From the NCBI RefSeq assembly GCF_006543045.1, contig NZ_RBZW01000021.1, forward strand, positions 310,001 to 374,000: DNA of 64,000 nucleotides, in the 5' to 3' direction. Shown here piece after piece: positions 12,776 through 39,638 of the stretch. The position numbers and the translations under genes were made by a program. Under the pieces are notes generated by a model that saw only the letters and a list, made by a program, of their open reading frames with translations, ran no database searches and was not told where the DNA came from. Every line of letters begins with the position of its first letter. Within the stretch, counting starts at the first letter, position 1. The DNA is from Salinadaptatus halalkaliphilus. Its GTDB lineage: Archaea; Halobacteriota; Halobacteria; Halobacteriales; Natrialbaceae.

Positions 12776-12879
12776 TGCGAATTGACCTCCTCCTCCGCGT
12801 GAACGCGGAGGAATCCCGCCACGGGATTTCAGGCTGCGTGTAGCGGCCTGTTGGTTTCAAGACGCATCCGTTCCAGGCG
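12776..12879 (-). ncRNA. Probable omega-RNA 3' region and right end of an IS605/IS1341-type element (relic)
   Basis: Immediately downstream of the tnpB relic, read on the minus strand. Two perfect hairpins stand side by side: AATCCCG-(3 nt)-CGGGATT at 12812-12828, and TCCTCCGCG-(4 nt)-CGCGGAGGA at 12791-12812. The second ends in a GGAGGTCAA boundary like that of the element at 27.98 kb. In IS605-group elements the tnpB 3' end and right end encode the guide RNA scaffold, and haloarchaeal sense-overlapping transcripts of IS1341-type genes are known. Whether this relic still makes RNA is not known. Confidence 0.6.
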
Positions 12880-13338
12880 TCACCTGCTGATTTTCAGCAT
12901 CGTCCCCAGAAATTGGTCTGCAATGTTTATCGCCCCGTTCACGTCAGCTTGATACTCTCCGACCCAACAGTCGTCGTTCGAGCATCTGAACGTCGCCTGT
13001 CGTGGCCGGGAGCCATGTTCACCGCAGGCGTGGCACGCCTTCGACGTGTTCCGGGGATTCACCGTCTCGGCGGGAATCCCCTTCTCGGTGGCTTTGTAGC
13101 GAATCTGTGCGTGGAGCTTCTCGGATCGGATCGAGAGGCACGGCAAGTAGCCGATCTGCCGATCGGTGAGCTCTCGCTCACGCAGTTCAGCCCGAGCGAA
13201 CGCGTCCTCAGACGCGCGATCTACGAGTCCGCACTGGAAACGTTCGACTTCTTCTCGATCCCGGTCTCCGACGTTCGGCCCTGGATCGACGCACGCCTCG
13301 GCCTGCGTTGAGACGGAGTGCTGTGACAGCAGTGGCAC
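12880..13338 (-). pseudogene. Truncated IS1341-type TnpB (C-terminal fragment)
   Basis: Residues about 80-152 of this frame read as a TnpB C-terminus: YKATEKGIPAETVNPRNTSK, a CxxC-x(n)-CxxxxC zinc finger (CHACG ... FRCSNDDCW), and YQADVNGAINIA, which contains the RuvC-III aspartate. The first 75 residues do not align with TnpB. No RuvC-I (D) or RuvC-II (FEDL-type) motif is visible, so the nuclease is missing two thirds of its length. The fragment lies between the sugar kinase and a MATE gene, and no left end was found. Confidence 0.75.
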
Positions 13339-27304: not shown

Positions 27305-27366
27305 GACGGGATTGGGAAATCGGGTCCCAGTGTCCCCCATTCCGATCGCGGTTATACGCTAAGCAG

Positions 27367-27986
27367 GCGCAATACCACGTCGTTCACGGCGTGGATACGC
27401 GCCGTCATCCCACCACCAATCATCGGAATCCAACTTCTCTGAGATTTGAACGCTAACGTTCAAGTGGACAGGCCACTTACATTACAAGTAGGAATTAGGT
27501 TGGAACGGAGCGATTCCCACCGGTCCTGCGGAGGCGGCCTGTCCGCCCCAAGCAATGAGATCGTTCGAGAATCTTTGATTCTCGTGATGACGAAAATCGT
27601 CGATTTTCGAACCACAGTATCCGGAACCAGTCGGGTGAACGGTCGGTTCCTATAATGAACCGATGCAGTGCCTGACTGCTTGGAAGCAGTCGGAAAGTAA
27701 CTCCGAGTCCGTCGAAATCTGCCGGACTCCCCCGTGGCAAAAACAACACCGGGAGTCCGAATATGACCAAGGATAGGAGTACCGGGGGCTTGGCACTCCC
27801 AGCAGTCCCACCCGCCAAAAGACCATGAGCATCCCGACGGATTCTCACCGACTGGATGCTCGGTGAGACTGCAAACCTGAAATCTCCAACGCTGAGCAAA
27901 CCGGAGGTTTGCGACGTACGCGAATCTTCGATTCGCTTGACTCAGGATTCCTCCGCGTTTACGCGGAAGAGGATGTCAAATTCGTC
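27367..27986 (+). mobile_element. Gene-less hairpin-chain element with IS605/IS1341-like ends
   Basis: About 620 bp with no defensible coding frame but at least a dozen perfect inverted repeats in succession. Positions: 27375-27394 (left-end-like hairpin, extendable to 27367-27402), 27446-27463, 27462-27478, 27533-27547, 27566-27584, 27591-27609, 27623-27650, 27674-27691, 27723-27759, 27844-27867, 27896-27912, 27920-27936 and 27953-27966. The last one, followed by GAAGAGGATGTCAA, resembles the right end of the TnpB relic at 12.8 kb in mirror orientation. It is interpreted as a non-autonomous IS605-group derivative and/or a structured RNA locus; transcription is unproven. Confidence 0.5.
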
Positions 27987-28246
27987 CTCGTTTGTTTCGT
28001 CTCCCATGGGTGTCGGACGGACGACAACCGTATGTACTTGTTGTGATGATTTGAGTAACTACTGTGTTTTCGCTGGTAGTTCTCCGTCCGAGACGACACC
28101 GCGTCAGTATCAGGATGACCGGAATCAGTCGTTGCACCCGTTTCGAAGGAATTGGTGGCGTCGTGGCTCCGTGATGGACACCGACGTGACGCTCCGAAGT
28201 GGTGACTCCGACACGCTTATTCACGCCGCGCGACGAAATCCCTGTA

Positions 28247-34260: not shown

Positions 34261-34334
34261 GCCGGTGTAGCTCAGACTGGCAGAGCGAATCCTTCGTAAG
34301 GATTAGGTCGAGGGTTCAAATCCCTCCACCGGCT
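34261..34334 (+). tRNA. tRNA-Thr (anticodon CGU)
   Basis: Full cloverleaf: the acceptor stem GCCGGTG pairs with CACCGGC, with discriminator T at 34334. The D arm is TAGCTCAGACTGGCAGAGC, and the anticodon stem AATCC/GGATT encloses the loop TTCGTAA with anticodon CGT, reading ACG. The T arm is GAGGG-TTCAAAT-CCCTC. There is no intron and no encoded CCA; a run of T follows. The discriminator T is typical of archaeal tRNA-Thr. Confidence 0.95.
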
Positions 34335-35995: not shown

Positions 35996-38900
35996 GTTTC
36001 AACCCCACAAGGGTTCGTCTGAAACGTTGGCGTTCGGGAATTGGGCACGGCATGGTAACGGTGCTTCAACCCCACAAGGGTTCGTCTGAAACATCGCCAA
36101 TATCCATCGCGAAGACAGCTGTGTCTCCGCTTCAACCCCACAAGGGTTCGTCTGAAACTCGGCGCACCGCCGCGTTGTGGGTGAGTCATCGTTCGCTTCA
36201 ACCCCACAAGGGTTCGTCTGAAACCGCCAGCGGTCGGGTGAAGCCTACGAACAGGAGATTGCTTCAACCCCACAAGGGTTCGTCTGAAACGCCGTCCTCG
36301 GCAGCCGTATCCTCGAGTCCCCAACTGCTTCAACCCCACAAGGGTTCGTCTGAAACCCTCGACCGGCTCCAGTTCGCCCACGAGAACAACCCGCTTCAAC
36401 CCCACAAGGGTTCGTCTGAAACAGGCAGTCGTCCCGCGGGACGAGTGGCGCGACGTCGCTTCAACCCCACAAGGGTTCGTCTGAAACCTCATCAGCGCCG
36501 TCGAAGACAGCGAGACGACCGTCGCTTCAACCCCACAAGGGTTCGTCTGAAACAAGACGCGACGGTTGACGCCATCCTCGAAGGGGTTGCTTCAACCCCA
36601 CAAGGGTTCGTCTGAAACCCGTGATACTAAGGTCGTCCTTGGTACAAAGTCCAAGCTTCAACCCCACAAGGGTTCGTCTGAAACCAACGCAGTCAACGGA
36701 GCCGTGACTGCGGCACTGAGCTTCAACCCCACAAGGGTTCGTCTGAAACCTCGAGCGTAGTCCCAAGCGCGAACTCACCGGGGGCTTCAACCCCACAAGG
36801 GTTCGTCTGAAACAGTGCATACGAGACAACCGCTAGAACCACACTAGCGGCTTCAACCCCACAAGGGTTCGTCTGAAACAACACCCTTATCGAGTTGGTC
36901 ATCCAACCACCGCATGCTTCAACCCCACAAGGGTTCGTCTGAAACTGCTCGGTATCGTCGCCACTCGAGAGGCTTGGAAGGCTTCAACCCCACAAGGGTT
37001 CGTCTGAAACGGGGTGGTTCGCTATGGTAGATAGTGATACTGAGCGCTTCAACCCCACAAGGGTTCGTCTGAAACACTCAACACCGGGGATTCGGTTGAC
37101 TTGGTCAATGACGCTTCAACCCCACAAGGGTTCGTCTGAAACGCACATGATTAGCATTAAATACAACGACGACGGACGCTTCAACCCCACAAGGGTTCGT
37201 CTGAAACCTGCGTCCGTCGCGTCTACAGAAAAGGTTAGCTGGCTTCAACCCCACAAGGGTTCGTCTGAAACACGTCGTTCGTATCTGAGTTCTGAAACTC
37301 CAAGTCGCTTCAACCCCACAAGGGTTCGTCTGAAACGATTCGCAATGAGACGGTTTCAAACGACCAATCAGGCTTCAACCCCACAAGGGTTCGTCTGAAA
37401 CTGATTGTCCATCCACCGATACACAGTACCCTGATTGGCTTCAACCCCACAAGGGTTCGTCTGAAACTTGCCAAGACTTCGAGCGTGCTGTCGTACCACA
37501 TGCTTCAACCCCACAAGGGTTCGTCTGAAACGAGATCAATCGCGACTTCGTCGTAATCGCCAGCAGCGCTTCAACCCCACAAGGGTTCGTCTGAAACTTT
37601 ACAGTCCATCACAAGGCATATTATACCTCGAGCCGCTTCAACCCCACAAGGGTTCGTCTGAAACTTCGCCCCACCAGCCCACATCGGGTTCCCATCACCC
37701 GCTTCAACCCCACAAGGGTTCGTCTGAAACTGGACATCCAGACGGGACGCTTGACAACATCGGATCGGCTTCAACCCCACAAGGGTTCGTCTGAAACTCT
37801 GCTGGATGACGGCCTCGAACAGTTGGGTTAGGCTTCAACCCCACAAGGGTTCGTCTGAAACACATATCATGGATTGTTTCGTTGAGGTCAGCGTTGGTGC
37901 TTCAACCCCACAAGGGTTCGTCTGAAACGAGGATGTGATCGTCCGCGTCCTCGAGTACCTCTGGGCTTCAACCCCACAAGGGTTCGTCTGAAACTGGACT
38001 TGAGTGGGTCGGAGGTAACAGAGGAGGACGTGCTTCAACCCCACAAGGGTTCGTCTGAAACTCGCTACCGACGCCCCACCAGTCCTAACTCGTGGCGCTT
38101 CAACCCCACAAGGGTTCGTCTGAAACCTGTTGCAGCACTCCAAGAGTTAGGCCACCTCGAGCTTCAACCCCACAAGGGTTCGTCTGAAACTCTTCCGCGT
38201 CCGCTGCAATCACCGTATCGTCAAACGCTTCAACCCCACAAGGGTTCGTCTGAAACGGTCATCACTTCCCCCGTTGTCCGAAGACTGCTCGAGGCTTCAA
38301 CCCCACAAGGGTTCGTCTGAAACTACAACCCGGCATTTTGCACTCGGTCATGCTAGTTCGCTTCAACCCCACAAGGGTTCGTCTGAAACGCTCCCAGCGT
38401 GCTCGAGGCAGTCGGGATGTACGAAGCTTCAACCCCACAAGGGTTCGTCTGAAACCCGGCGATTCGCCCGCGTTTCGTACCGTTGTTCCAGCTTCAACCC
38501 CACAAGGGTTCGTCTGAAACACAATCCAGAACCGTGCGAGTGGGAAGATACTCGCGCTTCAACCCCACAAGGGTTCGTCTGAAACAAACAGTCGATCACC
38601 CGACAGGCGTCGGAGCTGATCGCTTCAACCCCACAAGGGTTCGTCTGAAACGCGAGGTCGTCGACTCCGAGGCCGTCTCAGTTGCGGCTTCAACCCCACA
38701 AGGGTTCGTCTGAAACTATCAACGCGGCCACGGACTACCTCGAGCGTTTCAATGCTTCAACCCCACAAGGGTTCGTCTGAAACTCGTCGTCTGTCTCCGG
38801 TTCTGGCAACTCGAAGCATGCTTCAACCCCACAAGGGTTCGTCTGAAACCCGTCGTCAAGGCTTTCGATAAGTTCGCTTGCGCTGCTTCAACCCCACAAG

Positions 38901-39638
38901 GGTTCGTCTGAAACGATCTACCCCATAGGCAAATCCATGTCCGAGCATTCGCTTCAACCCCACAAGGGTTCGTCTGAAACGTCGGCCTTGTCCGGCCGCT
39001 CGACCGCTGTCGGATCGCTTCAACCCCACAAGGGTTCGTCTGAAACAAGGAGCTCACTGGTGGCGAGGACGAGGTCAGCGCCGCTTCAACCCCACAAGGG
39101 TTCGTCTGAAACGTCAAACGAAACGAGCTTGAAGACGCGGATAGAGACGCTTCAACCCCACAAGGGTTCGTCTGAAACGCGGTCGTCCCCCTCTCGAGCA
39201 GGGTCAACACCAAGGCTTCAACCCCACAAGGGTTCGTCTGAAACCCGATCTGTCCCTCGGCGCCGTAGTCACGGAGGTTGCTTCAACCCCACAAGGGTTC
39301 GTCTGAAACGCTTCGACCAGTACGAGCCGATCAGCGAACAGATCGCTTCAACCCCACAAGGGTTCGTCTGAAACATCGTTCACAATGCGGATACGGGCGA
39401 GATATTCGGCGCTTCAACCCCACAAGGGTTCGTCTGAAACATCGAACCCACAAGGGAGACTCGAATTTGGCCAACCGCTTCAACCCCACAAGGGTTCGTC
39501 TGAAACGAGTTCCTCGACCTGCGGGTCGATTCCCGGCTCGATGCTTCAACCCCACAAGGGTTCGTCTGAAACACTCTTTTTACTCACAAGTCCCGTCATC
39601 GGGATTCTGCTTCAACCCCACAAGGGTTCGTCTGAAAC
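35996..39638 (-). CRISPR. CRISPR array, 56 repeats of 30 bp and 55 spacers (type I-B)
   Basis: On the plus strand each repeat starts GCTTCAACCCCACAAGGG and ends TTCGTCTGAAAC (30 bp); on the transcribed minus strand this is the haloarchaeal repeat GTTTCAGACGAACCC...TTGAAGC. I counted 56 repeats from 35996 to 39638, with spacers of about 34-39 bp (mean about 35.7). All repeats appear identical except the leftmost (35996-36025), where the second base is T instead of C; a changed terminal repeat marks the leader-distal end. Leader and cas2 adjoin the right end, so the array is read right to left. Spacer matches to viruses or plasmids cannot be tested here. Confidence 0.98.

Follow-up and report, generated by a model that had tools for sequence, protein, structure and literature searches.

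The stretch of DNA examined here (64 kb, hereafter the window) probably contains, at positions 27356-27979, a non-autonomous IS200/IS605-type element of the PATE type whose sole cargo is a long two-domain RNA and which is moved and retained in trans; we put the probability of this reading at roughly 0.7. Because the element has no protein gene but specifies a guide RNA for TnpB, it probably borrows the TnpB of its relatives to keep its genomic place.

Table 1. Features of the element and its immediate flanks, in window coordinates.
Feature	Positions	Strand	Evidence
Predicted TnpA target and TnpB target-adjacent motif, TTAT directly left of the element	27352-27355	+	TTAT count in homologues; empty site
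Complete TnpB-less IS200/IS605-type (PATE-type) element, A...TCAA	27356-27979	+	Full-length alignment of 35 homologues; empty/occupied pair of a Haloquadratum homologue
Hairpin of the left end, nearly the same sequence as in tnpB element L111	27375-27394	+	End comparison; covarying pairs
5' RNA domain, ~200 nt without its insert	27437-27689	+	Model R1; so far only in TnpB-less elements
Insert 1, 54-nt double hairpin	27560-27613	+	Absent from most homologues
3' RNA domain, putative TnpB omega-RNA scaffold ending at TCAA	27690-27979	+	R2 matches 3' of tnpB; sot0042 match; covariation
Insert 2, 49-nt double hairpin between CCAACG and CTCAGG	27892-27940	+	Absent from most homologues
Right-end hairpin, then AGGATGTCAA	27949-27970	+	Covariation; same end in tnpB elements
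Predicted position of the guide, ATTCGTCCTCGTTTGTTTCG, determined by where the element inserted	27980-27999	+	No consensus after TCAA; guide role from TnpB biology

Hairpin chain and element boundaries

An earlier note on this DNA had described a dense chain of about 12 perfect hairpins in 27367-27986, and the chain is real: a greedy count of non-overlapping perfect hairpins with a stem of at least 5 and a loop of 3-8 yielded 11, compared with 3.3 ± 1.8 in 500 dinucleotide shuffles. With stems of at least 6 the count was 10 (0.95 ± 0.94 expected), and with stems of at least 7 it was 8 (0.24 expected, shuffle maximum 3), again relative to 500 dinucleotide shuffles. No other 620-nt stretch of the window is as rich in hairpins, and fold stability relative to shuffles reached z = -7.0 as RNA and z = -5.7 as ssDNA. 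From the sequence comparison, the unusual hairpin richness of this copy stems from two inserts of ~50 bp (Table 1), without which the 624-nt element would measure 521 nt. The note's further statement that each stem is individually maintained fails for four of the eight longest stems (27566-27609, 27896-27936), which lie in these inserts; since most homologues lack both double hairpins, not every stem is kept by selection. Insert 2 recurs in homologues L009-L012 and L017, and units like insert 1 lie beside a tnpB (C4:49140-49195, L099), beside a tnpA (C28:210003-210058) and elsewhere within the RNA of L037. The inserts resemble the SMR-A small mobile repeats that hit PATEs in Haloquadratum (PMC3119063) in being short, palindromic and located inside PATE and IS605-type elements, but they are ~50 bp rather than ~110 bp long, and their position is inside the RNA instead of being confined to near-terminal palindromes.

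The hairpins at the two extremes of the chain (27375-27394 and 27953-27966), earlier called IS605-like, do form the left and right ends of an IS200/IS605-group element, whose exact extent replaces the span of 27367-27986 proposed before. A search pattern that did not demand TTAT recovered this motif 6-8 nt before the left-end motif in 52 of 55 distinct homologues (control, 0.9%). In the aligned copies, TTAT is followed by a hairpin at the 5' end, of which there are two types, and at the right a hairpin is followed by GAGGATGTCAA and then by unrelated DNA; the TCAA 3' end is kept as GATGTCAA, or as GATATCAA in L014 and L083. The DNA after TCAA has no consensus among 45 elements. The element's own TGTCAA end is able to pair with TTGGCA at 27790-27795. 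The left-end segment by itself also turned up at many other places when the source genome and its relatives were searched. The two left-end types (GCAGGCGCAATACCACG.. and CAAGGAGAATACCTGCGGC..) are joined to the same RNA core in the alignment (L002 and L001), and ends may therefore be exchanged as modules.

The boundaries are also given by Haloquadratum J07HQW1 (G357), in which a duplicated stretch is present both with and without a copy of the element (L094). The joined flanks of the occupied version are 99% identical to the empty one over 340 nt, and the occupied version has 548 extra nt between TTAT and its right flank; the junction is ambiguous by 2 nt, since AT begins both sides. This homologue is thus precisely inserted after TTAT, with TCAA as its other boundary and no target duplication; G357 is a metagenome assembly and the pair may be two population variants, but the precise unit is shown either way. 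For the window copy no empty site was found: relatives have the flanking gene, but their intergenic DNA does not align through the junction.

These ends are two different hairpins of the TTAT/TCAA type and not the terminal inverted repeats of a DDE-type transposon, which would mark a MITE. They agree instead with the PATEs of Haloquadratum, which lack terminal inverted repeats, have IS605-like near-terminal palindromes, cause no target duplication and are too short for a transposase (Dyall-Smith 2011, PMC3119063). The window element likewise has such palindromes, matching the ends of tnpB elements, without terminal inverted repeats, is non-coding and too short to encode a transposase, and belongs to a family whose precise insertion without target duplication is seen in L094; Haloquadratum genomes themselves contain copies of this family. 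PATEs have been described as non-coding and in part as degenerate remnants (PMC3119063), whereas the element carries a two-domain RNA conserved across the class, made up of an omega-RNA scaffold and a private 5' domain. Neither PATEs as omega-RNA carriers nor the 5' domain is reported in the literature searched, which lay mostly outside subscription journals and does not prove the novelty of either.

A two-domain structured RNA

The homologues have no open frame in common, as the earlier note's failure to find a convincing coding frame had anticipated; their longest open runs fall on differing strands and frames between copies. The absence of a common frame, together with indels that are mostly of 1 nt, rules out a protein-coding or decayed gene. 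From 35 non-redundant copies we derived a consensus structure of 140 pairs. Compensatory double changes, a check that had been set beforehand, were found at 47 of these pairs, and double-change cells numbered 160 compared with 54 ± 6 in shuffles; none of 500 shuffles reached the observed value on any measure. The consensus leaves 91.4% of cells paired, compared with 32-43% when partners are slid by 1-3 columns, a percentage that is partly built in because the structure was predicted from the same 35 sequences, and the double changes therefore weigh more. The best-supported stem (27717-27736/27747-27767) shows double changes at 15 of its 17 pairs. Among the unpaired motifs, GGCAAAAACAAC and GGATAGGAGTACCGG..TTGGCA are strongly conserved, although some copies have small changes in GGCAAAAACAAC. 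A candidate pairing of GCCCC (27545-27549) with GGGGC (27785-27789) was rejected: it competes with a local hairpin that varies and, being invariant, draws no support from covariation.

When the 35 copies are folded individually, the antisense strand is the more stable in every one, and on pairs common to both strands 211 G-U compared with 152 A-C indicate a weak sense bias. Assignment of the putative RNA to the sense strand rests mainly on its homology to omega-RNA.

The 3' domain is read as a TnpB omega-RNA scaffold of ~240 nt because its covariance model (R2, built on 27690-27979 minus the insert) finds RNAs just 3' of tnpB. In the source genome the matches directly 3' of tnpB include L111 (110 bits, E=1e-33), L112 (105 bits), L102 (84 bits) and L104 (66 bits), along with further weaker ones. 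Double changes occur at 20 of the 63 pairs of this domain. A cmscan comparison with Rfam placed sot0042 (RF02656) at 27695-27924 with 25 bits (E=4.6e-4), short of its gathering score of 88; apart from this sub-threshold match the scan returned no known RNA family, and IscB omega-RNA (HEARO, RF02033) gave no match at E up to 5. The Halobacterium sotRNA of RF02656 is itself an omega-RNA (PMC12558985), and the core AGGAGTA..CGG..TTGGCAC is common to the haloarchaeal sotRNAs and the element. In tnpB elements of the source genome, the omega-RNA also occupies the corresponding position with respect to the right end and likewise ends at TCAA. The element differs from all of these in that its RNA overlaps or adjoins no tnpB, the R1/R2 unit lying alone between the element ends, and in that an unrelated 5' RNA domain precedes the scaffold. 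The proposal that this is a TnpB-less, omega-RNA-only derivative was thus essentially right, given ends like those of L111, omega-RNAs after tnpB that match R2, and compensatory changes.

A separate model (R1) covers the 5' domain (27437-27688 minus the insert), which has higher sequence conservation and fewer covarying pairs than the 3' domain; one pair of its long-range helix (27467-27473/27537-27543) has undergone six A-U to G-C changes. The covariance search of haloarchaeal genomes that the earlier note had recommended found R1 in 112 of the 391 Halobacteria genomes searched, representing 43 of 87 genera. So far R1 has matched only TnpB-less elements and none of the tnpB loci tested, including all 27 of the source genome. 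Of 29 loci tested, 27 have an R2 match after R1 (shifted in L155), and the remaining two, L160 and L166, have none. We infer that the 5' domain may replace the missing tnpB mRNA, as a stabilizer, a recruiter of TnpB, or a regulator or brake of its activity.

Relatives and partner elements

DNA searches covered the source genome (G000, 4.52 Mb) and genomes of its family, and 101 of 125 genomes have some match to the element, comprising full-length and modular relatives. The nearest (L009, in G085) is 84% identical over the full length, and relatives are spread across Halobacteria, with family members in named strains of Natribaculum, Halorubrum and Natronomonas. Three of the five TnpB-less copies in the source genome lie at contig ends (C31, C26, C14), a sign of repeats breaking the assembly, so that copy numbers are underestimated. 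A viral origin was considered and set aside: 2.9 million viral contigs held no exact motif match. Elsewhere in the window, near a tRNA (34261-34334), the minus strand has a long CRISPR array (35996-39638) whose ~56 repeats belong to Rfam type CRISPR-DR24.

The source genome has 27 matches to TnpB, the ancestor of CRISPR-Cas12, and three to TnpA, one of them with a stop. The alignment with a TnpB-encoding IS1341-type element that had been suggested was made with L111 (contig C66; 1535 nt), which shares with the window element a virtually identical left end as well as the right end, the TTAT target and a homologous omega-RNA; it differs in encoding TnpB (444 aa) and in lacking the 5' RNA domain. 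Its TnpB contains PF01385 and PF07282, with RuvC acidic motifs and zinc-ribbon cysteines that look intact by eye. A further element, on C45, has an intact-looking tnpA beside tnpB and a right end like that of the window element. A tnpB remnant is present in the window at 12782-13119 on the minus strand (C28:322782-323119), with a 157-aa open frame, PF07282 and a weak omega-RNA match directly 3'.

Among 80 genomes, the median TnpB count was 18 in those with R1 and 7 in those without (p = 3e-7); R1 is also missing from both of the genomes that have no TnpB. This association fits a dependence on TnpB in trans, although general mobile-element load could also cause it. The partner omega-RNA of L111 scores 110 bits with R2, compared with mostly 200-300 among TnpB-less copies; because it has clearly diverged, recognition of the element's RNA by that TnpB is not certain.

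Proposed maintenance in trans and alternative explanations

In the IS200/IS605 cycle, an empty site is left once TnpA has excised the element as single-stranded DNA; TnpB with its omega-RNA, guided by the flank after the right end, then cuts this site beside the target-adjacent motif, whereupon the element is copied back (PMC10278001, PMC11870625). The window locus has the DNA and RNA features that this cycle needs, namely the TTAT target, the TCAA end, the scaffold and a flank to serve as guide. Because these are present and both proteins are encoded elsewhere, we propose retention and spread in trans. A TnpA encoded elsewhere would excise and insert the element as single-stranded DNA; host DNA flanking the scaffold, which ends at TCAA where the right end is cleaved, would serve as the guide; a TnpB encoded elsewhere would load this RNA and cut TTAT plus guide wherever a copy of the locus is without the element, through loss or from the outset; and repair from an occupied chromosome copy would restore or spread it. 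Transcription of the RNA, its binding by TnpB and its guiding of cleavage are inferred from the features listed above. Haloarchaea are generally polyploid, and such a drive would therefore be favored.

The same ends and scaffold might instead be what is left of a tnpB element that lost its core by deletion, with the omega-RNA a passive remnant. PATEs have in part been called degenerate IS605 elements, and HqIRS71 resembles a terminal segment that includes the 3' end of tnpB (PMC3119063); the ends and 3' domain of the window element are likewise common to tnpB elements. Independent remnants, however, would not have a homologous 5' domain of ~200 nt that is missing from tnpB elements, and the covarying stems and strongly conserved unpaired motifs across the class point to long maintenance without a resident tnpB, making simple decay quite improbable. 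We consider it unlikely, if a little less so, that the RNA acts as a decoy sequestering TnpB (or TnpA), as a parasite or a host-tamed regulator, rather than as a cleavage guide. An extra 5' RNA domain could be inhibitory, as a region of the tnpB mRNA inhibits cleavage by TnpB in vitro (PMC10278001), but a decoy has no need of the TCAA 3' end where the guide begins, which is kept; TnpA transposition also needs TCAA.

Conservation might also act on the single-stranded DNA, for recognition by TnpA, and not on an RNA. The ssDNA fold is far more stable than those of shuffles, antisense folds are at least as stable as sense folds, and the G-U excess is modest, all of which would suit this explanation. 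Y1 transposases, however, are known to need only terminal hairpins, and the internal 3' part is homologous to an omega-RNA that exists as RNA in Halobacterium (RF02656; PMC12558985), so that of the explanations weighed here this one seems to us very unlikely.

A wider form of the trans-maintenance reading is tentative, and we rate it slightly below even odds: such elements may be class-wide RNA-only homing elements, with no protein gene and a selected two-domain guide RNA, for which host TnpB in trans cuts empty sites on sister chromosomes. They would then amount to a minimal natural gene drive well matched to polyploid haloarchaea, and their 5' domain to a new RNA module acting on TnpB.

PATEs outnumber transposons in Haloquadratum (PMC3119063) and have so far largely been treated as debris. 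If many of them carry a guide RNA, they would themselves rank as selfish elements, with TnpB as a shared nuclease used in trans. Two questions thereby become directly testable: what reason haloarchaea have to retain dozens of diverse tnpB genes, and by what means PATEs survive where the resident transposases are defective. The 5' domain, in turn, may show how guide RNA can be stabilized or regulated outside the tnpB mRNA, which would be useful for TnpB tools.
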